Origin: Chytridium lagenaria
Taxonomy: Eukaryota; Chytridiomycota; Chytridiomycetes; Chytridiales; Chytridiaceae
NCBI GenBank assembly: GCA_025449115.1
Contig: JAHLKC010000041.1
Span: 1-64,000, forward strand
DNA length: 64,000 bases
Reading direction: 5' to 3'
Both the position numbers and the translations under genes were made by a program. Positions 7,038-26,130 of the stretch are shown here, in pieces (the stretch's first letter is position 1; each line of letters begins with the position of its first letter). A model generated the notes under the pieces. It was not told the origin of the DNA and searched no databases. It was given only the letters and a program-made list of their open reading frames with translations.

Positions 7038-7190
7038 GTGCTATAAAAACCTTCTTGGAAGAACTTTGAAAAACCCCCAAGAGGAAAAAGAATGGAACGG
7101 GAACAAGGAAATAAGGAATATGGGCATGAGTCTATATAAGCGACGTGTTCACGCCTTTAGGTGAGGGTATCTTATAGTCTCACAATTTGT
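7038..7190 (-). repeat. Degenerate LTR-like piece, copy 5
   Basis: Reads ctataaaaaccttcttgg, aaaaacccccaagagg, aagaatggaacgggaacaagg and tgagggtatcttatagtctc. Inverted relative to 6700-6870, from which it is separated by only about 170 bp. Confidence 0.55.
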
Positions 7191-7319
7191 GTACACCCCA
7201 ATGACCTTGGGCATACCTCTATAGCTTTAGGCTAGCCTTAGGGCTGTGCTTTCTACACCCCTACTTCAATTTAGTGTTTTGAGTAGTGTCAAGGGCGCCC
7301 AGGTTGCATGCCACCACGG

Positions 7320-7812
7320 GAGACCGTAATACGGACCAAGATGAAGTTCTAAGAAGGTATGAGCTATGGATAGATGCCTTATGGGCACAATTTTTTTAAG
7401 AGAATCACGTGTGCTGCTAGATTATTGACGGCATATGCCATCCCAATGTTTGAAGTGTGAGTAGCGGCACATAAGAAGCTCGTGGATGATGAGAGGACAG
7501 AAACAACATGTTTAATCAGTTATAAGGAGCAGAAACAGAGACCTGACGCATTCCTTGAAGTAAGCTTAAATCCCGTCTTGTAGAACTCTTTCCCCTAGTC
7601 ATTTGGATCCAATTATTAGGCACTTTCCCTTCTTTACTCCCCTTTTATTAACAATCAGAACAAAACACAAACCACAGCAACTCAAATCCCCGCTGTCACT
7701 AAAGGCAGAATAGGCTTGAAACTTGATCTAGGATTACATACTAGACTCTCTTCTTGACACCTATTATGTGGTTCTCTACCTCTATATGCAGGGGTTTAGC
7801 AGAGGAGGCGGC
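7320..7812 (-). repeat. Repeat B, copy 3 (inverted)
   Basis: Reverse complement of 4684-5165, about 490 bp, running from ggtatgagctatgg through ttataaggagcagaaacaga and cactaaaggcagaatag to tatgtggttctctacctct and tttagcagagg. With copy 1 it forms a long imperfect inverted repeat around about 2.1 kb. It ends about 100 bp before the 5' LTR of the gypsy element. Confidence 0.7.
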
Positions 7813-8147
7813 TAGAGAGAGCTTTACAGTTCATCAACATCCATCTTGCTCACGTCTGCCGTGAAGCTGAGTGATTGCAGGGTTGAAGGTAACACCTTCC
7901 CATTAGCATCTGTGTGTGAGATTTTGCACTTCTGGGTGCATCTCACTAAGTTCACGTTACTTATGCAAAGTGAATACTTAGACGCGTTTACGCGTTCACC
8001 CCTCGTAAGTCCTCTTCTTTTCCCTTTTAGTGGTTTTCTACTTTTTCCCACGCGTTGTTATAAGGGTTTTTGTCGAAGAGGGAAGGCACTCGTGCCTTGG
8101 TTGTGTTTTGTTCTTGTTTGTTTGTCATTATTTTGGTTTGTCTCCAG

Positions 8148-8154
8148 TATAAAA
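8148..8154 (+). promoter_or_regulatory. LTR TATA box
   Basis: TATAAAA inside an inverted context (tctccagTATAAAAtggaga), followed 20 bases later by AATAAA at 8175-8180. Both are conserved in the 3' LTR (22532-22538). The position about 230 bp into the LTR fits the U3/R boundary, although the transcription start is inferred, not seen. Confidence 0.65.
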
Positions 8155-8234
8155 TGGAGACATTTTGTGTTTTGAATAAATTTGATAATTCTTTCCTCTT
8201 GATTTTGGCCCAGTTCCTAGCCTTTCTCCAGTTG

Positions 8235-8264
8235 GAGCCAACTCCCTGTCCTTGGAGTTGGCTC
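8235..8264 (+). other. LTR stem-loop 1
   Basis: Perfect 11-bp stem (GAGCCAACTCC / GGAGTTGGCTC; arms 8235-8245 and 8254-8264) with the 8-base loop ctgtcctt, about 55 bases after AATAAA. In the 3' LTR (22619-22648) one A-to-G change keeps pairing as G-U. It could be a polyadenylation, packaging or dimerisation structure in the R/U5 RNA. Confidence 0.6.
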
Positions 8265-8913
8265 GGATTATCCCCATCTCTTATCATTGACGATCTGCCC
8301 TAGCCTCTGTAGTGACCGCCGGACTGAGCCTCTCGCAGCCCCACTTACGGGTCGGAGACCCGAGGACGCGACGCCTTGGGAGCCGGATCTACCCCACTAC
8401 TGCAGTCTGGGTCCCGGGAACCCCTCCCCCTTGGTAAGTCAACTCCCGAGCCCCGATTATCACGTCGCTGGCCACAGTGTGGGCGGGCCAGTCGTCACTC
8501 CCTCTCCCAACTCCCTATGATTCCGACTTTTGCTGAGGTAGCGAGGGCGAGGCAGTCTCCCGTCGGATGAGGCTTAGTAGGATTGGTGCACACGCCAACG
8601 GTGAAAAGGTCGCGTACGCAGGGCCGGACTATTGTGATCGTCACCGACGTCTCTCACCTGGAGCGTTGTGGATGCAGGACATTAGGTAAGTGTTGTGATT
8701 GTTTATTGACGATAGTCTTTATTTACTAGGTTGAGAGCAAACTCATTAAAAGAATCACGAGAAAACGATGCACCTCTGGCGGGTCCTTTGAATAACTACC
8801 GTCCGGCGCCAGGAGGACCTTCTGAGCCGGGTAGCGAGTAGAGGACTTTAACGAAAACTGATTAAAGAAATGTAAGTGACTACTTAAACTCCTGAAGACC
8901 TCCCTCGGGTCTA

Positions 8914-8933
8914 CTATCATTCGAACATGATAG
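8914..8933 (+). other. LTR stem-loop 2 near the U5 end
   Basis: CTATCAT / ATGATAG around the loop tcgaac, preceded by a small AGACC / GGTCT hairpin (about 8896-8912). In the 3' LTR the second arm reads ATGGTAG, which keeps the stem through a G-U pair although this LTR section is otherwise diverged. This suggests RNA-level selection. Confidence 0.5.
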
Positions 8934-8967
8934 GCGAACCCCTCTAGACGAGAGGGAGAAAGTCACA

Positions 8968-8990
8968 GTGGGGGCCCAACCAAAGCGGGA
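8968..8990 (+). other. Candidate primer-binding site
   Basis: Directly after the 5' LTR, the sequence reads gTGGGGGCCCAACCAAAGC. A TGG start one base after the LTR is the usual position and opening of a tRNA-primed PBS. I could not match the rest to a specific tRNA 3' end with the expected T-arm spacing, so the primer is unassigned. Confidence 0.45.
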
Positions 8991-9116
8991 TTCCACCAGA
9001 GGTTAGTAAAATCGTTTTCCCCGTTGTTTCTCGGGTCTTTTTACTTTTACCCCCATCCCCTTTGCTTCCTCAATCTTTCTGGTCTTCTCCTCAGACCACT
9101 ACCCTCTAGCACCAAA

Positions 9117-9144
9117 TCACTAGCGTTCTCTTTCACGCTAGTGA
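9117..9144 (+). other. Leader stem-loop (perfect 10-bp stem)
   Basis: TCACTAGCGT and ACGCTAGTGA flank the 8-base pyrimidine loop tctctttc. It is the strongest of several hairpins in the 1.1-kb untranslated leader. Confidence 0.55.
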
Positions 9145-9257
9145 CTTGTGCTTAACAAGACTCCGACCTTTTCAATCAGGGTCGTTGAGTCAATATTAGA
9201 ACTCGTTGCCGCTTCTCTTCAGCTGGTAACCCCTTCTTTCACTAACCTTGTGCTTTA

Positions 9258-9296
9258 GTGCTATTTTTTAGCACCTTTCTAGTGACCTGCCACTAG
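9258..9296 (+). other. Two adjacent leader hairpins
   Basis: GTGCTA/TAGCAC with a T5 loop (9258-9274) is followed after four bases by CTAGTG/CACTAG with the loop acctgc (9279-9296). Stems are short, but both are perfect. Confidence 0.4.
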
Positions 9297-9956
9297 TTTA
9301 ACCCCTGTATCATGGCTTTTAGCCGTCTTACATGCCTAACTCATTATGTCTGCGAAATCCCCATCCTTACCCCATTGGCACTATATCGCTAATGGTAGTC
9401 CCTCAAGAAACTTTTTCCTAATCACGCTTTCATATAGACTGGGAATTGACCACGAGGTGATCTTCATCCACGGTCGTTGTCTACTTATATGACCTTTACC
9501 CCTTCATGACGGTCTCCTCGGATCCCTCCCAAGAATAAAAATTTATCGCCTCAGCCTTGTGCGACCTGTATCACCATGTGTAACCCTGGTGCTACTCTTG
9601 CCGGTATAGCTAAAACATTTCACTTTATTATTATATATGTTAACTCATACACATATTAATAAAACCCGACGGGCCATTAAGCTGCTACCCGTACCCGGTT
9701 TACTCGCCTTTCCAAAAATAATAATGGTACCAGTGTTTTAAATATGGGACTTTAATAATTGACGATATGATAAATTGGCATTTATTTATATCTAATTCCT
9801 CATAAAAATAGACATTTATATTTACGACAATACAGTCTAAAATAATGAGATGCTATTGTAAAAATTGGTAATCACGAATGGGGACTCACCTCTTTTTGTT
9901 TATCACACATGCGTTTCAATGAGGGAGTTCGAATCCCCCTATTGGACCTACTTGTA

Positions 9957-9978
9957 GGGTGCCCTCTTTACGGCACCC
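9957..9978 (+). other. Leader stem-loop before ORF A
   Basis: GGGTGCC / GGCACCC around the 8-base loop ctctttac. It is the third perfect hairpin in LTR plus leader with an 8-base pyrimidine-rich loop. It lies about 130 bases before ORF A. Confidence 0.45.
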
Positions 9979-10096
9979 TCGTTTCAAAAAGGGGATGCCC
10001 TTTAATAAAAACCATCTCAACCAGCACATCTTTCCCCTCCTACCTACATCGGATTCGCTAACAAATAAGTTCCCTCTTTATCGTTCTCCAACTTAA

Positions 10097-11440
10097 CCTA
10101 ACGAAAAAGTGAGTATCGCCATCAATCTATCTGTTCACCCCCTGGTCTTCTATTTCAGACCCATTTCCACGGCTTCTCCTCAGCCTATATCTTCTAGCGC
10201 CGTTCTCATCGGAGCTAACAACGATTTTCCTTCTCTAGTGCACTCTGCACCTTCAGGAAATTCGACCCATCACGACGCCGCCCTTCACCAGAAGGCTGGT
10301 GGCAGGCGTGATAAGCGCCGTCCTACTCAGCGACGTGCAAACGGCCTCCCCACGACTTTTAATCCCAACGTCGTCGGTCAAAAGCAGTTTGTCGCCTCTC
10401 TCGCAAGCTCCAACTCTGTCTCTGGTCGCCTTTACGCCTTCTTTCAGCACTCCAGTTACCCTTACTGCGATCACAACGTTGGTGAGTTCCTCAAAACGGA
10501 ATCCAACCCTACCTACCTCGCCCGATACTTTAGCCTGGAGGACTGTCAACGCCGAAAGGTTAAGCTCCTTGATATTGGCAAGCTTGGCGCAAAGCTCCCC
10601 TCCTCAAAGGTACCATCTCCTCCAGTAACCTCTTCTGACGAGGTCGACACCTCCCCCATCACCGAGGTAATCTCCGTCACCGAAGATTCCGAAGACGACG
10701 AAGTCGAACCAGCCCTTCGTGTCGACGATCCCAACCACGGCCCTCTCTTCACCGACGGCACGGCGTTTAAGAAAGTTCGCGGAAACCACCGTAAACCCAA
10801 CTCCGTCGCTTCCCAGGTGGCCACCATCGAGGTCTGGCTTGAAGCCCTATCCCTTGTCGATCCCTCAACCGCCAGTGCCCCCCTTCCTCGCACTATCGAC
10901 TTGCAAAAGAAGAAAGACATCCGCCTAGCGCTTATTGTTGATCTCAAACGCCGCCATCTGGAAGCGAGGCAACGCATTTACAAGCAACTCCAAGAGCGTC
11001 ACGCCTCCCTTCCCCCAGGAACGTACCACTCACCCCTTGAGCCCCTTTACCTCATTAGCGATAGGCGCCTTTTAGCTCTCGTCGAACTCCTTCAATCTTA
11101 CCTCACTCCCCCTTTTGCTCGTGCAAAACAGGGTGCTCTTGATCGTGCTCCACCACCTCCGTTGGTTCCGGTCCCACCTCCTCCTCCTCCCGCACTAAGC
11201 AAGCCTACCGAGTCTGCTGTGTCATCACCATCTGACGCTGCTCCTCCGGCATCCCTTTCGGTTGCTCCACCTGCACCGAAATCTCGTTCGTCTGTCTCTT
11301 CCTTGACTGTCGTGACGACTCATCCTTCCTTCAAAGGAAAACGGCACTACTTTAAAACCAAATCCCAAAAAGCCGACTCCTCCTCTTCAGCTTCTGGCAA
11401 CCCCATGGACATCGATCCCCCAACCAAAACGAAAGAATAA
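10097..11440 (+). CDS. ORF A of gypsy element: large protein of unknown function, no AUG
   Basis: Open from the stop at 10094-10096 to the stop at 11438-11440 (about 447 codons). The only in-frame ATG is 11 codons before the end (MDIDPPTKTKE). Translation would have to use a near-cognate codon (a GTG at 10109 is possible), a spliced leader exon or a frameshift. The protein has a basic Arg-rich patch (GGRRDKRRPTQRR, near residue 70), an acidic Asp/Glu/Ser segment (EDSEDDEVEP, near 195), a helical basic segment with RRHLEARQRIYKQLQERH (near 290), and a Pro/Ala/Ser-rich tail with polyproline (near 345). It does not match any gag or enzyme family I know. Its place before gag suggests a capsid, RNA-binding or chaperone role, which is speculative. 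The frame is fully open while pol is broken, so it may be under selection. Confidence 0.65.
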   Translation, partial: PNEKVSIAINLSVHPLVFYFRPISTASPQPISSSAVLIGANNDFPSLVHSAPSGNSTHHDAALHQKAGGRRDKRRPTQRRANGLPTTFNPNVVGQKQFVASLASSNSVSGRLYAFFQHSSYPYCDHNVGEFLKTESNPTYLARYFSLEDCQRRKVKLLDIGKLGAKLPSSKVPSPPVTSSDEVDTSPITEVISVTEDSEDDEVEPALRVDDPNHGPLFTDGTAFKKVRGNHRKPNSVASQVATIEVWLEALSLVDPSTASAPLPRTIDLQKKKDIRLALIVDLKRRHLEARQRIYKQLQERHASLPPGTYHSPLEPLYLISDRRLLALVELLQSYLTPPFARAKQGALDRAPPPPLVPVPPPPPPALSKPTESAVSSPSDAAPPASLSVAPPAPKSRSSVSSLTVVTTHPSFKGKRHYFKTKSQKADSSSSASGNPMDIDPPTKTKE

Positions 11441-11482
11441 CCGATATTACTTTGTTTTATTGAAAGTTATTAATAAAAAGAC

Positions 11483-11914
11483 ATGGTCTTTACATCCGAA
11501 CCCCCCCGCTATGCGTGCATGATGGTTTACTTTCATGACGAAAAAGCCTATAAACCATTCTGGTTTCGAGTAATTACAGAAACCAATCCCGAAAGCCTCA
11601 CCTTACGCTCAATTATCCGTGTATCCATTGCCGTCGTATCCTATGTCCAGGGTGAAGAGGTCCTTTGCTATACCCAGAAGTATAGTCCGTCAGACTTTGA
11701 TGTTGGTGAGTCCTTTCCCCGTCAAAGAGCTACTCAGGCCTTTTTGGCTTACCTCGATGCCATCCCGGGTGTCCTTCTTTCTCACCGGGACTTTGCCAGA
11801 ACCTTCTCGCCCGATGGTGACTCCTTCTCTTTCCCGGATCCACCCATCCCCATTTTTAACGGTTCCTTCATCCCTTTTGCACATAATATGGATCCTGAAA
11901 CTTCTACATTCTAG
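11483..11914 (+). CDS. ORF B of gypsy element, unknown, 143 aa
   Basis: ATG start about 40 bases after ORF A, in another frame. It encodes a compact protein without coiled coil, membrane segment or zinc motif. Aromatic and beta-strand-like stretches (MMVYFHDEKAYKPFWFRVI, VSYVQGEEVLCYTQKY) suggest a small folded domain. A Phe/Pro-rich tail (FSFPDPPIPIFNGSFIPF) follows. I do not recognise the family. The complete frame between ORF A and gag suggests a genuine accessory protein of this retroelement. A spliced or readthrough relation to gag, 77 bases downstream, cannot be excluded. Confidence 0.55.
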   Translation: MVFTSEPPRYACMMVYFHDEKAYKPFWFRVITETNPESLTLRSIIRVSIAVVSYVQGEEVLCYTQKYSPSDFDVGESFPRQRATQAFLAYLDAIPGVLLSHRDFARTFSPDGDSFSFPDPPIPIFNGSFIPFAHNMDPETSTF

Positions 11915-11991
11915 AAAATGACAAGTTTGTTCCACAAATCTGCTCATCATTCACATTACCTCTGTCGGAAATTCATAACCCCTCCCCAATA

Positions 11992-13662
11992 ATGGACGAA
12001 ACACCGCCTGTCAACGTCCACCTACTTTCGGTGAGTGAAACCTCCATGTCGCTGCCAACTCACCGTGAACAATCTCACATTGGTTTGGATGATGAGACTT
12101 CCATAGGCTCCCAGGGGTCAAGCCCACCTCTTGACTCCATCCATCGGTATGTTTCATCCCCCCATGAATTTCCTAACGCCACCTTTAACGCCCCCTCCTC
12201 TCCTGGTACCTCCGTTACCTCAAATTCTGACTCGACATCTAACGGACCTATCAGTGATGGATCCTTTGTTGATGCCGTTGAAATGGGTTCAACCCCCAGC
12301 TCCGCGGGTAATACCACTGATCCCGTCTTTATCCTCAGACAGCTTGCCGCTCCTGTACCTTCACCTGCTCAGCAACCCGTCCTCTCATTTCAACCTCCTC
12401 CATTTATTATGTCTGGACCTTACAACGCCGCTTCTCCTACCGGATCTGCCATCTCCGTCTCAACTCCCAAAATACTGGATGGAATGAACGCTAAACGCGC
12501 ACAGGATCGGGTCAAGGACCTCCGATTTCGTGGTGAAGATGCCGACGAGGCCACTGACTTCCTTGATGAATTGGAGGACATTCTTTCACAACACGTCGCA
12601 GACCCCCTCAACCCCCGAGAACTCCGCCCATTTACCTCCATGGACGCTGCATTCAAATCGACCTGGAACCCTTCCACCATCCTCCAGGATAAGGCAGCTA
12701 TCCTTCGTCGACAATCTCGAACCTGCACCTGGAACGAATTCAAGGCTCTCATCCTGGGTCACTTCGCTTCCAAAAACAGCGACAAAATCCTCCGTTCTCG
12801 AGTACGTACCTTCCAATGGGATCCCTCCACCACAATTCCCAGCCAGGCTCTCGCGGAGCTTACGAACCTTAACTCCCGCGTTCCCCTGGCCACCCGCGTG
12901 AAAAATGAAGACATCAAAGATCTTTTCATCACGGGTTGCAAGGATGATACTTGGATTAACGCTGCCTATGCCGAAACCTACAACAAGCTCAGCTGGGACC
13001 ATCCCACCGTTACGACTCTAGACATCGCTAATCAGATGCACGCCCTCCACCCTCGCAACAACACCTCTCTTAGCTCGTCAAGTACGATTGCTACACTCCA
13101 AGCTCGCCACGAGGCCCAGGAAATGATGCTTCGGGACATTGCTCGCAGCTTGAAGAATTTGCAACGACAAGGTGTAAACACCAAGCCTGCACCTCGCACC
13201 AACCTCCTCTCATTCTTGACGGAGGAACTCAAAATTGCACCGCCTTCTGAAGGTATGAGTGAAACCCTTATGCACAACATGATCACCATGACCGCCGACA
13301 GTGCTACTGCCGCCTCGTTGGAGTCCGGAGATGAACCCCCGTCGGAGGTCGACATACTCAACTTTGCTGCTGAAATGGACAACATTCGTCTCGGTCGACA
13401 GCCGGCTCCCTACAAACCAGGCTACCCTCGCCCTGGTGGAACTTCCAATACTTCGGCTATTCCCAAGCCTCCTTACCAGCTCGTAGCCCTCCTCAATGGT
13501 GCCCCTTCCATCAGGAGAACCATTGGACTGCTTGTCCTTACAACCAACTCACCACGGCGGACCTTGACGCGCTCCTCGATCGAAAAGGTGAGTCTTCTGC
13601 TCTTAACCTACGCAAATCCTTACCTGCTTTACTTAGTCAAACAAACGACGACTCAGCTGTGA
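11992..13662 (+). CDS. gag: Gag polyprotein of the gypsy element
   Basis: 556 codons from ATG 11992. The first about 160 residues are Ser/Pro/Thr-rich and disordered. A capsid-like retrotransposon-gag domain follows (residues about 165-370), with DGMNAKRAQDRVKDLRF, FLDELEDILSQHVADPL, TWNEFKALILGHFASKN, VRTFQWDPSTTIPSQAL and a final helix ALHPRN. A helical linker (about 370-460) follows. The nucleic-acid-binding zinc knuckle is not in this frame. It appears in the -1 frame at about 13497-13545 as CPFHQENHWTAC (C-x2-H-x4-H-x3-C as read, close to the C-x2-H-x4-H-x4-C box of plant gypsy gags). That frame is open from 13335 into the protease ORF. The last about 60 residues of this frame are therefore probably not native Gag. 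The remnant at 25.7-26.1 kb is homologous to the capsid start. Confidence 0.82.
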   Translation: MDETPPVNVHLLSVSETSMSLPTHREQSHIGLDDETSIGSQGSSPPLDSIHRYVSSPHEFPNATFNAPSSPGTSVTSNSDSTSNGPISDGSFVDAVEMGSTPSSAGNTTDPVFILRQLAAPVPSPAQQPVLSFQPPPFIMSGPYNAASPTGSAISVSTPKILDGMNAKRAQDRVKDLRFRGEDADEATDFLDELEDILSQHVADPLNPRELRPFTSMDAAFKSTWNPSTILQDKAAILRRQSRTCTWNEFKALILGHFASKNSDKILRSRVRTFQWDPSTTIPSQALAELTNLNSRVPLATRVKNEDIKDLFITGCKDDTWINAAYAETYNKLSWDHPTVTTLDIANQMHALHPRNNTSLSSSSTIATLQARHEAQEMMLRDIARSLKNLQRQGVNTKPAPRTNLLSFLTEELKIAPPSEGMSETLMHNMITMTADSATAASLESGDEPPSEVDILNFAAEMDNIRLGRQPAPYKPGYPRPGGTSNTSAIPKPPYQLVALLNGAPSIRRTIGLLVLTTNSPRRTLTRSSIEKVSLLLLTYANPYLLYLVKQTTTQL

Positions 13663-15063
13663 TCCCGCCTCACTTGGTCTTTTCCATATCTCAACACTTT
13701 TTTCCTGACCAACAACATGTACCCTATTGTTTGGTTAGCAGTAAAAATAAAACCTTTCGTTATTCTGATGGCATACCTTCCATTCCACTTTCATCTTTAT
13801 ATGAAAATAGTGTCGATCCATCTATTGAACTTAATAAAACTGTTTTTATCCCTTCAAACAATGACGAATTGAATTCATTTCTTATTCACATGCACGCTTC
13901 TGGCGGCTCTGGCATCGTTTTAACAACGCCAACGACAAACATCTCTTCTTGTACTTTATTGAAACAAACATCATGCAAACAACCACTCATTGTTCGCATT
14001 CAATTCCCTCACGTTCATAAAATACAATCAGATCCCTCCACATTCTGCACCGCGTGGTTGGTTTCTGCTCAAACTGAGGCAGATTACATAACTGATGAAG
14101 ACTTTTTACCTAGTCACGAATTACTTCCCGTCACCGTGAATACAAAAACTTCTACATTATACCGATGTCGTCCGATTCTAAATCGACATCACGTATCTCC
14201 CTTCCTTAAGATGCTTACCAGCACTTCAAATCGCCCACGCATTCTTCGAAAGAATGCTCCTCCCGTCGTACTCAATAAAACATTAACTGACGATGCCATA
14301 TCATTGGCCTCTCTCGCCATTTCCCTACCTACCCACCCCCATCTCCCTAATGCGGAAAAGTCGCAACTGTTGCGACGCTATCTTCAAGAGACGGCCATGG
14401 TACGAAAATTCGAAAACGATATATTCGTACACGAGGTCTCTCAGGAAACCGAGAGAAGTTTATCAAATTCTTCCTCTCGAAGAGAGGCTGGAACGAATAC
14501 TCATGTCAGTAACGAGAGTGTCATCCCAGACGTTGCTAAAATATCCGACGTGTCGCTTGTGGCTTTACCTTTGGAGACTGCTAAGGTTGAGACGAAAGAA
14601 ATGGACTGCCAGACTGACTTCGATATTATTATATCGGACGTTCCCAAACACCTCATCGAAAAGGATGATGCATGCATTGCCCAGATTTGCTCTCGAATCC
14701 AAGGTGTCTACGTCGGTGATGTCTTGCTAGATACAGGATCCAATTGTAACATCGTCACTAAACAGTTTCCTTCGACGACTGGCTGAGGCTGGAAGAAGAG
14801 TCAAAATTATCCCTTTTCCCAAACCTCGCTACTCTCGAGGTATTGGAGGAAGACAACCCATCCTTGGGAGGTGTCTCCTAGATGTATCACCAGGTCTCGT
14901 GAGTCCGCGAATAAAGAAGCTTCAGGAATTTAATATTGTTGAACGCTGCCCACGTCCGATTATACTCGGCACCCCTGTTATCAACGCTTTTCATATGGAT
15001 ATTCTCGCAAGCCAAATATGGTTCGGTTCTATTACTATAGACCTGGACTCCCCCATCTCGTGA
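13335..15063 (+). CDS. Gag C-terminus / Pol N-terminus with retropepsin-like protease
   Basis: Open frame 13335-14786 overlaps the end of gag in the -1 frame. It starts with the zinc-knuckle-like CPFHQENHWTAC and continues through a region of unknown function. It reaches the protease flap-side motif VLLDTGSNCNIVT at about 14727-14762; the DTG triad is the catalytic Asp of an aspartic protease. One frame break at about 14761 moves the rest (RRLAEAGRRVKI, then PIILGTPVINAF at about 14958) into the next frame, which stops at 15061. The ILG motif is the second retropepsin hallmark. The enzyme would cleave Gag-Pol as a dimer. The broken frame means it is inactive as written, unless the break is an assembly error. 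Confidence 0.75.
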
Positions 15064-15954
15064 AAATCCCCCTCCTTCACCAGCGAGTTATCAGGGCAGT
15101 TCCGACAGTGACTGGTCATCCGTCCTTTCCGAGCCTTACGTCAACTCTTGTCCAGTTCTTCACTACACCACCCCGCTTAAGCTGGTGTCCCGTGCTCATA
15201 CCTATCTGAGTGCCTCTCCCTACGTACGTGTCATTGTTGCCAGGGATGTGGACCTGGACATGGACACCACTACTAAGGTCGAGTGTATTATTGATCGACT
15301 CCCCGATATACCTGATTCTACTTACACGGTACTTCCACGTACCGACTTACCAGACCTTTTTCCCCAACGAACTATCTTCGACCATGCCGACTTATTCCCA
15401 GACGGTATGATTTCTAATCCCATCAAAAAGAAATGGAATAAGTCCAGGAAAACCAAGTATGAGGAGAATATGTCCGTCCACATGACTCCCTTCCCTTTGC
15501 TGGTAACTTACCTTGGCCCTTTCCCCACCAAACTAACGGCGGGAATGGAGATTGGTTACATGGTCGACGATCATCAACAAGACACTCGATTTGTTTGCCT
15601 CTTAGCGACAAGATCATGGACGACGATGAATCCATGATCTCCTTACTCAGTGAGCTTATGGTCAATAATAAACTTAAATCTCTCAAAGACCTCCTCATAC
15701 ATTATTCAATTCTTGCTGAATCATGTGGAGACTTAGAAAGGAACGACCTTCGTCGTTACAGACGAACTAATAAAGGACATTCCACTCGAATTCCCAAACC
15801 TCCTATATCCTCAGCCCTCCGACGTCTTGACTCCTTAGCCAAGGAGCTTGATTTACCCAGTGACCCTCTCCTCGACGATCATCACGACGATGAGGACATA
15901 TCCCTAGTTGTCGATGATTCGTTACCTCAGCTTGACGCGTCGAACTTGATTTGA
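15064..15954 (+). CDS. Pol linker between protease and reverse transcriptase
   Basis: Read mainly in one frame to 15637, then in another at 15595-15954. It contains the beta-strand-rich segment usual after gypsy proteases (VRVIVARDVDLDMD... and FPTKLTAGMEIGYMVD), then an acidic Asp-rich stretch (LLDDHHDDEDISLVVDD). This is a normal, if long, protease-RT connection. At least two frame breaks occur. No separate enzymatic domain is recognised. Confidence 0.6.
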
Positions 15955-16040
15955 ACGAATCTGCTAATTCTTGGAGCCGTCGAAGGCGAAAAAGAGGCCC
16001 TTGCTCATCTCCAACCCAAAGATCCCACCAATGAGGATCG

Positions 16041-17520
16041 ATGGACTACCTCAAGGAACAAACCCCTGCTTCTTTTGAGGAAATTTGGAATCGTTTCGAT
16101 TTTGACCACCTGAAATCCTCTCCTGAACGCCTTAAGGCACTCCGAAGCTTCTTAGAAAAAGGACAGAACATGGACGTTTTTCGTGAATCTGTTCAAACAG
16201 GCACCAAATCTCCCGGTCAACACACCATCGAGCTTAAACCTTATGCTCGTGCTCCAAACCTTGCTCCTTATCCTGTAGGATTGGAGCGTGCTAAAATTAT
16301 TCGCGACCACATCGCTGAAATGCTTAAAACCAAGATTATTAGTGAGTCGCGATCCCCTTACGCCTCTCCTGTTTGTCTTGCAAAGAAAAAGGATAACTCT
16401 GTCCGATTCTGTACCGACTTCAGGAGATTAAATGAAGTCACAATAAAAGATAAATATCCTCTTCCCCGCATCGACGAGACTTTTGACCGTCTTGCGGGTA
16501 TGACTTTATTCACCTCGTTGGATCTTTTGTCCGGTTTCTGGCAAATACCCGTTGCTCCGGAAGACCGACACAAAACTGCTTTCGTTACCCCCGATGGTCT
16601 TTATGAGTATTTGGTTATGCCTTTCGGCCTTACTAACAGTCCACCTACTTTCCAACGTTGTATGGATATGGCTCTAGCTGGACTAAAATGGATAAATTGT
16701 ATGGTCTACATTGACGATATAATCATCTTTTCAAAGGACGAGGAAACCCACTTCGCCAACTTACAGCTAGTATTCGACCGGCTACTGGAATATAATCTAA
16801 AACTAAAACCCAAAAAATGTCAGTTCCTTTTTGAAGTACTCCCATTTTTAGGCCATGTTATTTCGAAAGATGGCATAAAAGCCGACCCAGAAAAACTCGG
16901 TAAGCTAGATAGCTGGCCTACTCCAAAATCCGTTCGCGACGTTCAACGTTTCCTAGGATTCACCAACTATTTTCGACGCTTTGTGCCTAACTTCACTGAT
17001 GTCGCATATCCTCTATATAGTCTTCTCAAGAAGTCTTCTCCTTTTTCGTGGACGGATTCCTGTGAGTCGTCTTTTCAACACCTTTTGAAAACTTTGAAAG
17101 CAGAGGTCCTCCTCACTAATCCTCTTCCCGACGATAAGCTCGTTATTTCTTGCGACGCTTCCAAAATTGGTATAGGCGCTGCTCTCTTTATCGATCGTGA
17201 CGGCATTTATCACCCCGTTGCTTTTGCCTCTCGAACTCTGAATGACGCAGAACAAAACTACTCCAACACCGATCGCGAAGGCCTCGCCGTCGCGTGGAGT
17301 GCTAGTCTTTTTGAACCCTACACTTGGGGAAAATCCTACAAAATTGAAACAGACCATTCTGCACTCGTCCCCTTTTTTCCAAGGGTGATCTCAAAGGCAG
17401 ATTTGCCCGCTGGATGTATGCCCTGCAGGAGCATAACATTGAGCTTGTCCACACTCCAGGAAAGAGCCACGAAGTTGCCGACGCTCTCTCCCGTGCCTTT
17501 AAGCCAACTGAAACCTTCAC
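16041..17520 (+). CDS. pol: Reverse transcriptase and RNase H of the gypsy element
   Basis: RT copies the element RNA and RNase H removes it. Starting at ATG 16041, the RT fold runs from about residue 60 (HTIELKPYARAPNLAPYP) through SPYASPVCLAKKKD, FCTDFRRLNEVTIKDKYPLP, FTSLDLLSGFWQIPV, MPFGLTNSPPTFQRCMD and the catalytic YIDD at residues 223-226 (16707-16718), to LGHVISKDGIKADPEK. The connection segment RDVQRFLGFTNYFRRFVPNF is typical Ty3/gypsy. RNase H follows with ISCDASKIGIGAAL (catalytic Asp), NTDREGLAVAWS (Glu) and IETDHSAL (Asp). The frame slips near 17375 in a T6 run. RNase H then finishes in the next frame with YALQEHNIELVHTPGKSHEV and ADALSRAF (about 17415-17500). All catalytic residues are present, so only the slip would disable it. 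Confidence 0.92.
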
Positions 17521-18660
17521 TGATGGTTCTGATGTTGTCACAATCTGTTCTGATTCTTCACGAGTCTTTATTGGCGCCAATTCTAAGTACCAAAATAAAA
17601 AGTTGAAGCAAAAGCACTCTGATCGCTCTAAGCGCTATGACGAAGTCTTTTCCACACTTTTAATGCGTTTCAATGCGGAAACAGCTGCTTCGTTAATAAA
17701 CAGCTCCACTAACTACCTGTTCTCACAACACCTGTTGCCCCAACGAGTCCGGCACGTTTGGGTACTTCAAACCAACCCAACCGCGCTCACCTACGTTTTA
17801 GCCATTGATGCCGTTTGCCTTCCTGGTGAACTTAATGATTCCTCACCTACCAGTCAGGATTTCAATGACGGTACCTCTCAATATAAGTATGCTTACCCAA
17901 TTCGGGCTAAGTATGAAATCAAAAAGCCTCTATCTGCAGATACGATCTCTTCTTTCAACGTTGACACCCAGAACTCCTGGCATCACTTACCTACAAGTGT
18001 ATTAAATAAATACCTCTTACAAAAACGATGTTAATAAAACGATGTTAATCAGTACCCACCCTCCCTCCCATACTCTTTTGACACCCCCCCGGATCTTGAC
18101 GATATAAGTCTTGTGAATGGGATCATCGACGCCTCTAACTTAGAAATCGATCCTCCCCCTCAAAAGATTGAAGACACTCCATCCGACATCTTTGTCAGAA
18201 TGAGCGCTCCACGTGTCCAGGATCTCCTTTCAGGACGACGCGAGCATGAGTACCTCCCACTGAAACTTGACGGCCTCACCTCTCTTTGGATATGCCAGTG
18301 GGAAGAGACTTTCCCTAATGACAAGGGTCGCCGACCAAAACCACCGCCAGGGTGCGTAAGTCACGTTGCCGTTGTTGGCGACGCAATTCCCCCAACTAGT
18401 CCAGACTTTCCGAAGCCTGTGATTTACGGTTTGGGAGGGGATCTTGAAACTTATTATGCCTACCGCATACTCCAGGTTTTCGAAATCCCTGATATTCTTA
18501 TGGAACGGAAATTAAATAAAGATGAGCCTCCTTCTCTGCGTGAGCTCTATGATGTTCATACCACGCGAGGAAACCCCACCGTTCCTTTGCGGATGGTGAT
18601 TGACTATAACTTGCTAAAGCTTAAAAAGGTTTATCCCCTCCCTGCTAAAGTGTCCCCTTT
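17521..18660 (+). CDS. Unrecognised Pol spacer between RNase H and endonuclease
   Basis: One reading frame covers 17414-18034 and resumes 18050-19288, separated by TAA TAA inside a 14-base tandem duplication (18020-18047). The encoded about 380 residues contain ordered-looking blocks (YLFSQHLLPQRVRHVWVL, YAYPIRAKYEIKKPLSAD, WICQWEETFPNDKG, VIYGLGGDLETYYAYRIL) but match no family I know. In ordinary chromoviruses, RNase H is followed almost directly by the integrase zinc domain. This segment and the endonuclease after it are therefore extra. It could be a partner domain that positions the endonuclease; this is inference. Confidence 0.55.
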
Positions 18661-19480
18661 TGAGGACTTCACCCTTAAAATGGTCACCTGGAACGTCAAC
18701 AGTTTAAACGCTCTATGTAAGAAATTATACCAGCGTAAACCTGAAACAGAGGACCTTAACCGGGTCGAATTCTTTGCGAGATACCTCGAGAAAATGGGTT
18801 ACTCTATTGTTTGCCTTCAGGAGACCAAATTAGGCGAAGGAGCCAGAAAGTTATGGCAACAACTACAGCACCTCACCAACTGGAATATCCATGCGGATGA
18901 AAAACATGATGGATCTAATGGTGTCATCACTATGGTCCGAAAGGAAGTCCCTGTGATTTCGGTTCACACCGGGACCTCTCTTGATTCCACTAACGACGAC
19001 TTTGTTGAGGAAGGTCGTTGCCTCACCATTTGTTTACCTGGTTTGAACATCGTCAATGTCTACTGCCCTAATGGCACTCGGCATGAACACCGTCATTATT
19101 ACAAGATGCGCTTTTTAAACAGGCTTTATGCCCTCGTAAAAGACTTACGTAAGAATAATAAAACTATATTACTTGGTGATTTCAATATCTCTCATACCTC
19201 ACAAGACACCCGATACCTGCGCGTTGCTTGGGCTACTCAGGGTTCAGAGACGACGAACGAGCATTGTTTGATAGTTTCCTCCGTCTAGGTTTCCTTGACG
19301 GCTACCGCACTTGCCACCCAAATTCCCCAGGCTACACCTGGCACGACCCCCAGTCTTTCTACCAGGCTGTATGGCGAGTTGACTACGCTCTTGTCGACTA
19401 TAGAATTCCATGTTCTTGGAGAGTAAACCATTATTTTGCAGCAGGTCTTACTGACCACAGTGCTGTGGAACTTGAGCTTA
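18661..19480 (+). CDS. ExoIII/APE1-like endonuclease domain inside gypsy Pol
   Basis: Part of the ORF starting at 18113. It shows the ordered signature of exonuclease III / AP endonucleases (EEP superfamily): VTWNVNSL (Asn, residue 194 of the ORF), VCLQETKLG (catalytic Glu237), VNVYCPNG (Tyr317, Asn320) and ILLGDFNISHT (Asp356, Asn358). After one frame slip at about 19225 come FRDDERALFDSFLRLGFLD, SPGYTWHDP, WRVDYALVD (19375-19401) and the final LTDHSAVEL with the Asp-His pair at 19453-19458. The order and spacing match a complete metal-dependent phosphodiesterase fold of about 260 residues. In non-LTR elements (LINEs) this enzyme nicks target DNA. Its presence between RNase H and integrase of an LTR element is unexpected. 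Catalytic residues look intact despite the slip, which implies recent function. Confidence 0.9.
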
Positions 19481-20748
19481 AAAATGACTTTGCACAACAG
19501 TTTGAGAGTGATCAGCATGTAACCCTCGCTTCTCTTGACACCTATGCTAATGTCCCTTCTTTGACCCTTCGAAATCACGGGAAATCCCGCTCTTCACGGG
19601 TTGCATCCAATGACGCCCCAATAGTCGCTGTTGAGTTCCTGGCTCTGGGGAAAGGCTTCGCCTGAGCTTCGAAAACTTCAACTGACCGACCCTGACTTTG
19701 GGCCTATTCGTCGCTTCTTGGAAAAAGGGAACAACCTTCCAATGATCAAGACCGCTCTGCGGTCCTCAAGAGTGCTCAGCACTCCGTCATGCGGGGTGGA
19801 TTACTTTACCGCGTTCTTCACGTTTCTGAATACCTTATGAAGCGATCGCCAGTGCGCCTTGCTCTTTGCGTCCCTCGCGGACTGAGAGAAGTTGCGTTTG
19901 ACCAAGTACATAATGATATGATGACCGGAGCTCACCTCGGCTCCCAAAAACTCCTGTCCACTACCCTTGAACGATACTGGTGGCTACTATTCATCGCGAT
20001 CTTGTCGCCTACGTACAAGGTTGCTCCACTTGCCAGAAATGTAAGGATTCCCTTAAGAAAGTCGGCGCTATTAAGCCGGTCCCCTTTGGTAACCAGCCTT
20101 GGGAACGCGTAGCCATTGATATCGTTGGTCCTCTTAAAGAGAGCAAACATGGTAATAAATACATTGTTGTCATCACGGATTACTTTACCCGATGGGCTGA
20201 CGCTTTCAGTGTTCCTGATATTACCTCGGATACTGTTGCTCGTACTATCGTCGAGCAGTGCTTTTGTCGATTTGGCATTCCCTTGGTCCTTCACTCTGAT
20301 CAAGGCCAGCCTTTCGTCAGTGAATTGTTAAAGAAGGTGAGCATCGTCCTCGGCCTCCGTCAATCTTCTCGTCGCCTTACTGGCCTCAAGCCAACGGCCT
20401 TGTCGAGCGCACCAACAAAACCCTCTGTCAGATGATAAGGGCTTACGTTAACCAAGATAGTCATGACGACTGGGATGAGATTCTACCATACGTTCTTTTC
20501 GCCTATCGCACCACAGTGCATCCCACTACCCGCGAAACCCCGTTCCTCCTGATGTTTGGTCGAGACCCCTTGACTCCTGCCGACCTCAGGTTCGGCATTT
20601 CCTCCGACGATGTCTTTGCTGAGACTTACCCTGATCCCCGTACTTGGGCGGGTCAGTTACCAAAATCCTATGATGACGTCCACGTCGCCTTGGCGATGGC
20701 ACCTCACACCCCTCTCGTGATCCTGATTTCCCCAGGATTGCTGTTATG
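19481..20748 (+). CDS. Integrase (zinc-binding and catalytic core) of the gypsy element
   Basis: Inserts the DNA copy into the host genome. The HHCC zinc domain is split over frames: FDQVHNDMMTGAHLGSQKLL (two His, about 19895-19950), then LERYWW, and CSTCQKC (Cys pair, about 20023-20045). The catalytic core has AIDIVGP (first Asp at 20118-20120), YIVVITDYFTRWADAF, VLHSDQGQPF (second Asp at 20298-20300) and, after a slip near 20375, YWPQANGLVERTNK (Glu at 20405-20407). WDEILPYVLFAYRTTVH and TPFLLMFGRDPLTP complete the core. The DDE triad is complete. At least three frame breaks are present (near 19800, 19980, 20375). The segment 19560-19790 before the zinc domain contains a short basic linker. 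Confidence 0.88.
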
Positions 20749-21300
20749 ACCTCTGGTGCTCGACACGTCGTGGTTCAGAGGCTTTCGAAGACTGTCCACG
20801 GTCTTAAAACCGCTGCTGATAGGGACGACTACCTATTAGCTGGTGACTTTCTTATTAAACATCATCTGGATATATTCTACGTCCTCCACACAACCCCACT
20901 AAACAGGAGACATCCCAAGTTCTTCTGGCGCACCCTCGGTGATAATAACCGCGTGCCAATGTATGCAATAACCTCTAAAGTTGTCCCTCTCCGCCGAGCA
21001 TGGTGGAGCCCACACCTTCGTCACAATTTTCCACAAGGGCATCATCACCTCTGACTTCCCGTTCCTCCCTTACGGTGGGCCCTCAGATGAATCTGCTATA
21101 CCACAACCAGACCCTCGTCTCTCCCACTTCCCCGTGTGATCCTAACCGTGATCAAACACTTGATCCCAACGTCCCTCAATCTATTTATTGTCTCCTCCTG
21201 ATCAAGGAGTCGTGAGGAGCCCCGCGTCACCACCTGTGGCTCCAGTCGCCCCTGGAAAAACTGAAGGCACAAAAACGGCCTCTTGATACGGTCGCGTAAA
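20749..21300 (+). CDS. Extra segment inside integrase, unknown
   Basis: Between the integrase core (ends near PDPRTWAGQL, 20635-20665) and the helical lead-in to GPY/F (DPPSYRDYVNQLTSRLALA, from about 21340) lie about 600 bases that are not part of normal gypsy integrases. A frame at 20746-21054 reads HVVVQRLSKTVHGLKTAADR and IKHHLDIFYVLHTTPLNRRH. A second, Pro/Ser-rich stretch follows in other frames (21000-21215). No family recognised. It may be an inserted accessory ORF or a lineage-specific linker. Confidence 0.45.
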
Positions 21301-22236
21301 GTGTTGAACTCTTCCATGACTTTTGTATTGCAGGATGATCCGCCTAGTTATCGCGACTATGTCAATCAGCTCACTTCCAGGCTTGCTCTTGCCAAGAGTA
21401 TACTCCTTCGAGAGTCTATGAAGCGGCGCGAAAGTGCCTCTGAGAAAACAAATAAGTCTCGACATCGTTTCGAAATTGGTGACCTTGTTTGGTTATCCGT
21501 ACCTCTACGCACTGAAGCGGCAACCAAAGATAAAGAATCTACGATAAAGAAGTTTCAATTTCGGTGGGCTGGTCCCATGCGTGTTATTGGTCATTCCCCA
21601 GATAACTTTAGGTTCAACCTCGTTGAGACCCTGCCTGATGGAAGGCTTCTGGCTAGAACCGCTAACTCTGCGAGGATGCGTCCTTACCATCCCTCTCCCC
21701 CAATAGACTCGGCAAACACTGCCGCCAACCGTGTTCTCACAGATGACTTTGAGGCCGAGATTGAGGCCTGGAAGAGCCTCCGCATTGTTCAACGGCGCCC
21801 CAAAACTAAGGTTGCTGTGGGCGTTAATCGTGAATTATTCCGACGCTTTGATGCTGACGTGCTTGAAGCTGACATCGACGACCCTGAGTTCTATGTCGAG
21901 AAAATTGATAACCATACTTTCCATAAAGAAAGGATGTCTTATGAGTACCATATTAAGTGGCTCGGCCAAGGTACTTCTCATAACCTCTGGCTTGAGGAGG
22001 TTGAAATCCCAGCATTATTGGTTCAAGATTATTGGAACCAGATGGCTACTAAAGACCCTCATGAGTACCGTGATCGTCTACGCTTCACATCTAAAAAGGG
22101 CATCCCTAAGCGAACCAAAACCATTCCTGGATATACTGTTGCCGCTGATAACGATGGATATGAAAGTGACCACGGTGAAAATCGGTCCATGACTTACCGC
22201 CACCAGTTGTTACCACTCCGGCAGATGTTCCTCTAG
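21283..22236 (+). CDS. Integrase C-terminus with GPY/F module and chromodomain
   Basis: One intact frame. A helix (residues about 20-55) and FEIGDLVWLSVPL lead to the GPY/F module FQFRWAGPMRVIGH...ARMRPYHP (21553-21690), which binds DNA near the integrase core. After an acidic linker comes a chromodomain at residues about 202-252 (21886-22038): FYVEKIDNH, EYHIKWLGQ, NLWLEEVEI and LVQDYWNQ. These keep the aromatic-cage positions (Tyr/Phe, Trp, Trp) that read methylated histone H3. Chromodomains steer chromovirus integration into heterochromatin. A basic tail (SKKGIPKRTKT) follows. The stop at 22234 is about 60 bases before the 3' LTR. Confidence 0.88.
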   Translation: MIRSRKVLNSSMTFVLQDDPPSYRDYVNQLTSRLALAKSILLRESMKRRESASEKTNKSRHRFEIGDLVWLSVPLRTEAATKDKESTIKKFQFRWAGPMRVIGHSPDNFRFNLVETLPDGRLLARTANSARMRPYHPSPPIDSANTAANRVLTDDFEAEIEAWKSLRIVQRRPKTKVAVGVNRELFRRFDADVLEADIDDPEFYVEKIDNHTFHKERMSYEYHIKWLGQGTSHNLWLEEVEIPALLVQDYWNQMATKDPHEYRDRLRFTSKKGIPKRTKTIPGYTVAADNDGYESDHGENRSMTYRHQLLPLRQMFL

Positions 22237-22298
22237 CCTTGGAAGATTTCATGGACAATGATTCCGAAAATATATCCTCCCCTTGAAAAATAGGCCAA

Positions 22299-23350
22299 TG
22301 TGAGATTTTGCACTTCTTGGTGCATCTCACTAAGTTCACGTTACTTAGTAAAGTGAATACTTAGACGCGTTTACGCGTTTACCCCTCGTAAGTCCTCTTC
22401 TTTTCCCTTTAGTGGTTTTCTACTTTTTCCCACGCGTTGTTTATAAGGGTTTTTGTCGAAGAGGGAAGGCACTCGTGCCTTGGTTGTGTTTTGTTCTTGT
22501 TTGTTTGTTATTTATTTTGGTTTGTCTCCAGTATAAAATGGAGACATTTTGTGTTTTGAATAAATTTGATAATTCTTTCCTCTTGATTTTGGCCCAGTTC
22601 CTAGCCTTTCTCCAGTTGGAGCCAACTCCCTGTCCTTGGGGTTGGCTCGGATTATCCCCATCTCTTATCATTGACGATCTGCCCTAGCCTCTGTAGTGAC
22701 CGCCGGACTGAGCCTCTCGCAGCCCCACTTACGGGTCGGAGACCCGAGGACGCGACGCCTTGGGAGCCGGATCTACCCCACTATTGCAGTCTGGGTCCCG
22801 GGAACCCCTCCCCCTTGGTAAGTCAACTCCCGAGCCCCGATTATCACGTCGCTGGCCACAGTGTGGGCGGGCCAGTCGTCACTCCCTTTCCCAACTCCCT
22901 ATGATTCCGACTTTTGCTGAGGTAGCGAGGGCGAGACAGCCTCCCGTCGGATGAGGCTTAGTAGGATCGGTGCACACGCCAACGGTGAAAAGGTCGCGTA
23001 CGCAGGGCCGGACTATTGTGATCGTCACCGACGTCTCTCGCCTGGAGCGTTGTGGATGCAGGACATTAGGTAAGTGTTGTGATTGTTTATTGACGTTAGT
23101 CTATTCAAAATACAGGTTATTCCCCTCTTTATTACGATGGTGCGAAGGAAAAACGATACGCTCCGGTTGGTCCGTTCTAACTGCCGTCTGGTGCCAAGAG
23201 TACCTCTTGAGCCAGGTAGCGAGCAGAGGACTTCAATGAACACTGATTAAAGAATGTAAGTTAGTATTTGAACTCCTTAAGACCTCCCTCGGGTCTACTA
23301 TCATTCGAAGATGGTAGGTGAACCTTAGACAAGAGGGAGAGAAAGTCACA
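22299..23350 (+). repeat. 3' LTR of the gypsy element
   Basis: Pairs with 7915-8967, starting TGTGAGATTTTGCACTTCT and ending GAAAGTCACA. TATA box at 22532-22538 and stem-loop 1 at 22619-22648 are conserved. From about 23097 to 23330 it differs strongly from the 5' LTR, then the final about 70 bases are again similar. The purine stretch just upstream (ttgaaaaatagg, 22283-22294) is the only candidate polypurine tract and is weak. Confidence 0.93.
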
Positions 23351-23746: not shown

Positions 23747-25640
23747 TGAATCCCCGCAAGAAAGAGCCAGGCAGCAATCAATACATTATTGATGCCATCC
23801 TCTCCCTCATGGAACGCCTAAAGGCCCTGGACGTTGATGTTATTGTCAACAAGAACAAGCTTAAAAGCAACACGACTTACTGTAACAAATCTCACATCCT
23901 TCACCAGTCTTGTCAATGATTGTCGCAAACTTCTCTACAAAACAAAGAGCGGGGTTAGGGAGATGCTTGTTGACGCTACCTCTGACATTGAGAAACTCCT
24001 GCAGACCCCCAGCCCACTGTTTGCCTGTTGGCAGATGGGGATGCGTACAATGACACTTCCTTTGTTTTTGGCCCGTGTCCTTACAGAAAGTCAGTTGAAG
24101 AGGCTCGTGCTATGTAACTTCCTTGCGCTGATCCTCCCCACCTCTACCACCTCTGCCTTACTCCCATCCTTTAAGGTTTCTGGCACTGCGGTTCTCCTAC
24201 CACCCAACCACCCTCTCCTACGTTGAGGTGAAGGGTCTGTCATTGATGTTGATGGCGATTCTCACACCGACACCATCACCGCATCCGTCGGATCCATCAG
24301 TGATGATGAGGATCATCCTGACCCTTGCCAGGTAGCTCTTTCTGTCTCCTCTGTTCGACGGAAGGCCCCTTGTTATGATTTGTCTTGTCCAAGAGTCCAT
24401 GGGTTAGATGATGCCAGGCACAAGAAGTTGGATGTTGATGGGATTACCTAAAGACTTACCCTTCTTCAATACCGCCAACCTCATCCTGGATCGTTGTCCT
24501 CAGCTTGCAGGTTCCTCTCCTTCACTAAGGAGACTAATGCAATTGCAGCTAACGTAAGGGGTTCAGTTCAGGTTAATCAAACCTCAACTGATTCACTTAC
24601 CACCTCTCCTGCAACTGATGTTGTTCTTTTTGTGCTCATGCGATGCAATATCCATTATAGTAGTTGGTGATCCCTTGTTGATTTCCTTCGCGGATCTTCA
24701 AGTTTTCACTCTCTTATCTAAAAAAGATGCAAAACTATTCTCTCTTTACACCGGAAAACCCATCCGACCCCTTCTTTTTTAAGGCTTCACTTACAACGAA
24801 TATCCATTGAGGACGACCTGCCATTCACGAAACTTGGGGGTTCCTTTTCTTCACCACTAGCTTTGTAAGTACGCCTTTTTCTTCCTCATCTTTTGTTGTG
24901 ACGTTGCAGCTTGTTGACGAGATTACGGCCAACAGGAGCGTCCTCTTTCACCCTCGTCTCTTCCACCTTCCAGACCTTACCTTTGGTGCAATCACCTACC
25001 GGAGATCTCGCCGTCAGAGAGCATCACTTGACTACCTTGCCTCTCACCGCAATTGCCTGTTCACCCCGGGCAGATCTCTTTAGATTCCTTGGACCTGGAC
25101 CTGTTTCACAGCTCCTCGTCACTAGGAACCACCATTTCATCTCAAGCTTACTTTAAATCCTCATTACGATGATCCCAGCTCCAGTTGGCGCTCAAGCTTC
25201 TTCTGCTCCAGCACAATCTCCATGCGTTTATACGCCTGGATCATTGACAGTTTCATATGTCCCACAGTTTACTGCTGCTCTAGTTTTACAACAGCAGCTC
25301 TTCTCTCCCTCTCTACCGGCTTTCTCGCCGGTTACAGGTATGAGTTTACTTTCTGTTGGAGTTCCTCATCCAACTAATAACCCGTCTTGTCTTCTTCATC
25401 AGATTATATCCTCTGATGACAACAATTATCTTCCTAGCAACACTGACAAGGCTTTTGATGACTGAGTCTGAAGTTTCCCTCTCTTGTCACCATCAATCAT
25501 ACACATTGGACCGGATCTTCTCCTCTGCCTCTGCTCCTTCCATTTTTTCTTGGATCCAGTCAGGTCCCACTCCTGCTGCATCCAGTGAGTTAGTTGATGC
25601 TCCTTGCGCTATTCCAGTCACAACTGCTGAGACTTAATCT
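23747..25640 (+). pseudogene. Degenerate 5' ORF region of a second retroelement (tentative)
   Basis: A chain of short broken frames with the same codon bias as the gypsy element lies directly upstream of a recognisable gag remnant. The first is an ATG frame at 23747 with IDAILSLMERLKALDVDV. Others are LLYKTKSGVREMLVDATSDI (about 23930) and a Ser/Pro-rich part (25150-25640) with PSLPAFSPVTGMS-like sequence. By position it corresponds to ORF A, ORF B and the disordered Gag start of the element at 7.9-23.4 kb. Direct similarity is weak by eye, so the assignment rests mainly on order. Confidence 0.4.
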
Positions 25641-25682
25641 CGTGAAGTTCAATTTTCACACACAGATAACAAAGGTCCGACT

Positions 25683-26130
25683 TTGACAAATCCACCTTTA
25701 CCTATACCTCCCATCTTCACCATGTCTGGTGCCAGTGGTTCTACTTCTTTTTCCAGGTCCTCATCCACTGCCTCTTTGGCTGTATCTGTTAAGAGAAAAG
25801 ATGGCATGAATGCCAAAAGTGCAAAGGATGATATGGCTACTGTGGTTCTTGACTCCCCAAAGCCTGCGTCCATCTGTTGTTTTATAAGAAAGATTGAGAT
25901 TATTCTCTCCCAATACGTTGCTGCTCCTACTGCGCCAGATCTTGCTTGTCCTTTTCATGATCTGGAGAATCCTGTCATAAACTTACGACCTGCTGTCAAC
26001 CATTGAGTCAACTTATAAAGATCCTTACCGTAACTTTGCTCCTAATACGGACAAGTTGGATCTTGTTACAAAAGTTGAGCAATTTCAATGGGACACCTCT
26101 CGCAAGTCCTCCCACATCATTTTTTCTTTT
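25683..26130 (+). pseudogene. Gag remnant of a second gypsy-type element
   Basis: Reads FTMSGASGSTSFSRSSSTAS, KDGMNAKSAKDD, FIRKIEIILSQYVAAP and, after a break, LVTKVEQFQWDTSRK. The intact Gag at 12.4-12.85 kb has FIMSGPYNAASPTGSAIS, LDGMNAKRAQDR, FLDELEDILSQHVADP and LRSRVRTFQWDPSTT in the same order. Identity is partial, so this is a different family or an old copy. Nothing recognisable of its pol remains downstream. Confidence 0.75.

Follow-up and report, generated by a model that had tools for sequence, protein, structure and literature searches.

The Ty3-type chromodomain element described here, a long terminal repeat (LTR) retrotransposon of the chytrid Chytridium lagenaria (Chytridiomycota), is shown, from its sequence and that of its relatives, to carry an Xth-family nuclease in its Pol polyprotein, apparently as a regular, selected enzyme situated between the RNase H and the integrase. 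The element spans positions 7915-23350 (15.4 kb, + strand) of the window, i.e., the whole stretch of 64,000 nucleotides analysed, which belongs to contig C41 of an assembly of 41.9 Mb in 356 contigs. Its Pfam domains follow one another on the + strand in the order RVT_1, RNase H, Exo_endo_phos, rve and Chromo (Table 1). The order of reverse transcriptase (RT), RNase H, nuclease and integrase is confirmed as recurrent in this genome, and is neither a chance arrangement nor a one-off.

Detection and class of the nuclease

An earlier note on this DNA had proposed an ExoIII/APE1-like nuclease within a Ty3-type pol, and the domain does lie there, with the RNase H upstream (17049-17378) and the H2C2 and integrase regions downstream (19846-20602). 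The first two thirds of the nuclease lie in the frame at 18038-19285, which gives the expected match to an EEP profile, Pfam Exo_endo_phos, at 57.4 bits (E 2.3e-15; cut-off 24.5 bits). The remaining part is in the frame at 19180-19662, which has no Pfam match on its own and is recognised by its similarity to an intact copy (E 1.5e-27). A frame change at ~19210 joins the two, so that the single correction claimed by the note is enough, and the signature motifs that it had read (WNVNS, LQETK, NVYCPNG, LGDFN, YTWHDP..WRVDY and LTDH) are all found in the window translation.

The cut-off of the NCBIfam equivalog model xth (TIGR00633; 99.05 bits) is passed by all five proteins that have a complete domain, while the window fragment, at 95.7 bits, is slightly under it; the endonuclease of a long interspersed nuclear element (LINE), tested against the same model, gave no matches. 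Against a profile of the element nuclease, 56 free-standing relatives score 87-161 bits, whereas three of the four LINE endonuclease frames reach 1.9-5.4 bits and the fourth was not among the matches listed. The capture of a LINE-type nuclease, one of the origins suggested by the note, is rejected by these profile scores and by the xth result; that LINE endonuclease structures were not among the structure matches listed proves nothing. The candidates for a host APE, an APE1-like gene (C71) and an APN2-like gene (C26), both named from their translations, are present as exon pieces only, which are too partial to decide on a host origin.

The columns of the known ExoIII/APE1 catalytic residues are invariant among the aligned nuclease copies, and the ExoIII-type motif GFxxxE is kept. 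In a structure comparison, the predicted model of the domain matches the ExoIII/AP (apurinic/apyrimidinic) endonuclease fold, which the underlying alignment, being rich in ExoIII-like proteins, favours.

Recurrence and selection

A region query of the genome returned at least 106 matches (100 of 140 candidates scored), and the Pfam rows used comprised 150 for RT (150 of 189 candidates scored), 105 for EEP (120 of 120) and 150 for rve (150 of 309); given that the RT and rve candidates were only partly scored, the locus counts are lower bounds. Upstream of at least 27 integrase loci, at a distance of no more than 5 kb, an RT is found on the same strand, and in 16 of the 27 an EEP domain lies between the two. 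The distance from RT to integrase is 2.67-3.80 kb in these 16 loci and 1.25-1.63 kb in 10 loci that lack the EEP; at C13 (3.67 kb), the Pfam EEP match is absent and the region query found degraded EEP pieces.

Once merged, the 105 EEP rows amount to 101 loci, i.e., 16 with the order RT-EEP-integrase, 13 RT-EEP, 13 EEP-integrase, 27 EEP-RT (the LINE order) and 32 without either partner, and in none of the 101 is an integrase found upstream of the EEP. One copy, L009 (C198), has a single open frame of 2,573 codons, ended only by the contig edge, with RT, RNase H, EEP, H2C2, rve and, below the threshold, a match to Chromo, and another, L010, is open for 1,604 codons from a start before the RT through to the integrase. 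The same genome also contains a LINE (L022:2827-8010) with one open frame of 1,727 codons, in which the EEP precedes the RT.

The ratio of nonsynonymous to synonymous substitution rates (dN/dS, by NG86) of the EEP domain in close copies is 0.016 (L012/L031), 0.096 (L012/L014) and 0.144 (L014/L031). For L010/L013 it is 0.275 over 196 codons, at a dS of only 0.024, with 0.051 for the RT-RNase H of the same pair, and one further EEP pair gives 0.18 at a dS of 2.7. In these few measurable pairs the nuclease looks to be under purifying selection, which, together with the recurrence in 16 of 27 loci, led us to reject a nested or chance insertion.

Relatives in other sequence sources

Two protein searches, with 834 and 393 candidates, returned three proteins. 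The first, P0001 (jgi source), has 3,585 aa in one frame, with a protease motif (LLDSGA), RT, RNase H, EEP, H2C2 and rve; the second, P0058 (ena source), has 854 aa with RNase H, EEP, H2C2 and rve; and the third, P0059, is from C. lagenaria. The source labels suggest that P0001 and P0058 are metagenomic. In viral contigs, EEP relatives (23-31% identity) were found at eight loci, none of which matched an RT or an integrase at E 1e-3, and a scan with an EEP-integrase alignment revealed no relative among 17 stretches.

Reverse transcriptase groups and a second lineage

The RT tree was composed of 13 rows of lineage A and L033 (12 genome loci and P0001), of lineage B, and of two (L048, L049) of the 10 loci without nuclease, with no named reference elements. 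The RT group of the window element (the 12 loci and P0001) is set apart by a branch that has a support of 70/94 and, when lineage B is removed, the same group is split at 100/100 from the two nuclease-less elements, which sit on a long branch. The new clade of LTR elements envisaged by the earlier note has, as this RT group, only moderate support (70/94).

All 12 genome loci of this group carry the nuclease, in C13 only as degraded pieces and in C135 across two frames, and the copies lacking the domain that the note had allowed for were not found among them. In C109, a 4.8 kb insert (L032:4009-8834) in a lineage A element separates the RNase H from the part that holds the spacer and the nuclease.

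The nearest solved structure to the lineage A RT is the Ty3 RT (E 2.6e-78). Lineage B (L015-L019, L055), which is very divergent and Ty3-like, has parts of a pol of the order RT-RNase H-EEP-H2C2-integrase; its RT is also closest to Ty3, but at E 4e-19, and its integrase, which is under the rve cut-off, was recognised through its similarity to that of lineage A. Two identical LTRs of 170 bp, beginning 9.4 kb from each other, belong to the C115 copy of this lineage (~119786-129359), which has no target duplication. Given that C115, C94 and C63 hold near-identical lineage B copies with a common right flank, they represent one insertion copied with its surroundings, which points to segmental duplication.

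In the EEP tree, lineage A and the L033 fragment form one clade (99/97), and a clade of lineages A and B together is compatible with the data (p-AU 0.383), being neither demonstrated nor rejected. The nuclease may therefore have been taken up once, and later lost, or twice into the same slot.

Spacer domain and other parts of Pol

The spacer domain that precedes the nuclease had no Pfam match in any of its seven members, and a single-sequence structure model of it was useless (pLDDT 33). In P0001, P0058 and L033, merely 80-115 residues separate the RNase H and EEP Pfam matches, too few for the spacer domain of the seven genome copies. A resemblance to an ASCH/PUA domain, suggested by eye, was rejected (Pfam 0 of 7 members; ASCH family 0 in the genome). 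A duplication of the spacer in tandem within L009 is not supported (best E 0.09), and a degenerate second EEP ahead of the RT in P0001 gave no BLASTP match.

Pfam H2C2 and rve are both present in L009, L010, L012, P0001 and P0058, and a simple motif scan picked up the three acidic integrase positions in no protein but L009 and the zinc pattern in none but P0001. The Chromo scores of L009 (20.7 bits) and L010 (18.7 bits) are under the cut-off. Between the integrase and the chromodomain, a stretch of the window (~20750-21260) looks conserved with L009, L012 and P0001, as judged by eye.

Architecture and condition of the window element

Table 1. Features of the element in the window, with the basis of each assignment.
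Feature	Position	Strand	Basis or remark
5' LTR (TGTGAG...GTCACA)	7915..8967	+	982/1065 alignment columns identical to 3' LTR
gag-like open frame, 587 codons	11899..13662	+	without Pfam match
aspartic protease region, LLDTGSN motif, two frames	14706..15063	+	motif read in translation
reverse transcriptase core (YIDD)	16383..16859	+	Pfam RVT_1 E 9.5e-37
RNase H, end part in next frame	17049..17450	+	Pfam RT_RNaseH_2 E 1e-25, RT_RNaseH E 1.2e-23
RNase H pieces	17049..17378, and tail in frame 17348..18031	+	
spacer domain, after RNase H and before nuclease	18164..18670	+	alignment of 7 copies, this genome
exonuclease III/AP-endonuclease (EEP) domain	18674..19476	+	single frameshift ~19210
integrase zinc-binding (H2C2) region, part	19846..19998	+	
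integrase catalytic core, two frames	19986..20602	+	Pfam rve E 5.2e-13
chromodomain	21895..22038	+	Pfam Chromo 26.0 bits, cut-off 25.1
3' LTR	22299..23350	+	99.6% identical to 3' LTR of C44 copy

The scanned window frames have no Pfam protease match, and an upstream frame of L012 matches Asp_protease_2 at E 3e-4, under the cut-off. The LTRs of the window element are 1,053 bp (5') and 1,052 bp (3') long, and given that the final 200 bp of the 5' LTR have just 81.6% identity to its own 3' LTR, which is close to that of C44, the window copy appears to have arisen by recombination between two LTR types.

Two further observations concern the surroundings of the element. Direct and inverted repeats (73-93% identity) are clustered immediately upstream of the 5' LTR (~4026-7828), and a fragment at 25638-26006, related to the gag-like frame (35.6% identity, E 1.5e-8), is probably the remainder of another element.

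Terminal repeats and target duplications

LTRs that begin with TG flank the copies in the window, C32 and C44, as well as the lineage B copy in C115. Of the eight LTR sites read for the window family, five have both outer flanks known. At three of these five, the LTR ends are bordered by a direct duplication of 4 bp, i.e., AGTT in C25 (a lone LTR), TCCT in C32 and ACCG in C44, each match being expected by chance about once in 256; there is no target duplication in C41 (the window) or C51 (a lone LTR). Fixed 4-bp duplications at the LTR ends indicate joining by the integrase rather than target-primed reverse transcription. The two LTRs of C44 are 99.2% identical, which indicates recent movement of the window family.

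The stretch after the 5' LTR is conserved in C41, C44, C157 and C32; no tRNA was matched to it, and there are no tRNA genes within the window. In C32 (G000:C32:35989-42327), a pair of window-family LTRs with a 4-bp duplication lies only 4.2 kb apart, and is perhaps a non-autonomous derivative.

Weighing the evidence and the proposed role

A number of observations weigh against an Xth-family nuclease as a regular, selected part of Pol, in addition to the bias of the fold model. The window copy itself is dead, given that its pol frames are broken in several places, and stops occur in the region in many copies of the genome. The stricter ExoIII models were matched below their cut-offs (TIGR00195 at best 150.7 of 182.55 bits, NF010489 at best 104.5 of 503, NF008733 at best 68.9 of 280), and 16 of the 21 EEP pairs are saturated, which leaves few measurable dN/dS values. 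P0001 and P0058 are known as proteins alone, without context, LTRs or host, P0001 has no Pfam chromodomain, and the longest open copy has DGG as its protease motif. The role in cDNA repair set out below rests, for its part, on knowledge of the enzyme family and on the parallel with dUTPase.

Xth enzymes cut DNA at sites where a base is missing, and they also clean 3' ends. On balance, it seems somewhat probable that the nuclease repairs the cDNA or cleans its ends in the particle, a role proposed because its slot in pol is that of the dUTPase of some retroviruses and its chemistry takes the same problem one step further. The nuclease would be made as part of Gag-Pol, packaged in the particle and probably released by the protease, and would act on the cDNA ahead of the integrase. 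Its likely tasks would be to incise abasic sites that stem from uracil or from the loss of bases, and to take away 3' ends that are blocked, remnants of RNA primers or surplus 3' bases. A repair-competent, clean-ended cDNA would then reach the integrase, and the nuclease would be the repair counterpart of the retroviral dUTPase.

The nuclease might, on the other hand, serve mainly in plus-strand priming or primer removal, through an RNase H-like or 3'-exonuclease activity, compensating for a missing polypurine tract, which we regard as unlikely. The sequence before the 3' LTR, ccccttgaaaaataggccaa, lacks a long stretch of purines and does not differ among C41, C32 and C37, and certain ExoIII/APE1 enzymes cleave RNA/DNA hybrids; an ordinary RNase H domain is nevertheless present, and the absence of the tract is a judgement by eye that covers a single family.

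Target nicking in the manner of LINEs, which the earlier note had entertained and which would make integration partly target-primed or dependent on entry at a nick, is disfavoured and appears improbable. EEP nucleases are generally known to nick the target in LINEs, and elements of the order EEP-RT occur in this genome (27 of 101 EEP loci), but the domain is of the Xth and not the LINE type, it keeps GFxxxE, and it follows the RT and RNase H instead of preceding the RT. In addition, the 4-bp duplications lie precisely at the LTR ends in three of five insertions, and five of the copies and proteins have both H2C2 and rve.

Even less probable is the retention of the domain as a non-catalytic binder of nucleic acid, like Crc in Pseudomonas, an EEP fold that is among the structure matches and whose role is non-catalytic, given that the known active-site residues are invariant in the aligned copies. 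The chance landing of a separate nuclease gene or LINE fragment in one element, or a chimeric assembly, to which the broken and recombinant state of the window copy might point, can be practically discounted in view of the same position in 16 of 27 loci, the single open frames, the purifying selection and the two proteins from other sources with the same order.

A broader reading, which we put forward only tentatively and with more doubt than belief, is that an AP endonuclease is obligatory in an old branch of LTR elements of early-diverging fungi and related microbes, where it would predate the split of lineages A and B or have been captured twice into the same slot. It would act there either in a quality control of cDNA that mirrors dUTPase or as the creator of nicks or 3' ends for plus-strand synthesis or integration.

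Comparison with known systems

The window family shares with the Ty3/gypsy (Metaviridae) chromodomain elements the LTRs, the order of protease, RT, RNase H and integrase, the H2C2 and rve domains and the C-terminal chromodomain, to which it adds an ExoIII/AP endonuclease of ~280 residues between the RNase H and the integrase and, in several copies of this genome, the spacer domain ahead of it. With exonuclease III, ExoA and APE1 (Xth) it has in common the passing of the TIGR00633 cut-off, the catalytic residues and the predicted fold, but the element nuclease sits within a retroelement polyprotein, has extra residues after strand 1 and has a shorter loop before W-R-[VI]-D-Y. LINEs with an APE-type endonuclease also have an EEP superfamily fold adjoining the RT, whereas the window element has another EEP subfamily, the reverse order and an integrase, which LINEs lack.

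Some retroviruses are reported to encode a dUTPase between the RT and the integrase in Gag-Pol, where it is expected to be packaged near the RT (PMC2427051), i.e., an enzyme of nucleotide or DNA hygiene in the same pol slot. It differs in that the dUTPase hydrolyses dUTP, while the element enzyme is a DNA nuclease, acting at the step after uracil removal.

In the literature searched, which did not extend to Repbase or subscription papers, no LTR element with the order RT-RNase H-nuclease-integrase was found. The nearest reported case there is that of the Kuafuorterviruses, LTR elements of animals in which Exo_endo_phos is reported "sporadically" (PMC11673190) and not as a regular domain, and whose RT motif is IADD, VADD or LADD; this xADD type does not occur in our elements, which have YIDD in L009 and P0001 and YLDD in L015 (lineage B). 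The LINE and DIRS retrotransposons of Symbiodinium that carry a DNMT (PMC5890265) have also captured a DNA-acting enzyme, but it is a methyltransferase and the elements are of other types. In the accessible parts of the respective papers, a survey of fungal LTR elements describes complex elements with additional domains acquired through multiple insertions and names no nuclease (PMC3248453), and a comparison of chytrid genomes, which includes an account of Batrachochytrium repeats, mentions apurinic endonucleases for LINEs only (PMC9926174).

Implications

For annotation, these elements are a warning that an EEP domain together with an RT is not proof of a LINE, and that RT-EEP loci without a detected integrase are readily misfiled as such. 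LTR elements are taken to require only protease, RT, RNase H and integrase. If a repair-type nuclease is indeed selected at the same place in two divergent lineages, some retroelements would bring their own DNA-repair enzyme, and the handling of abasic sites and blocked ends in retroelement cDNA would become testable by means of a small soluble domain.
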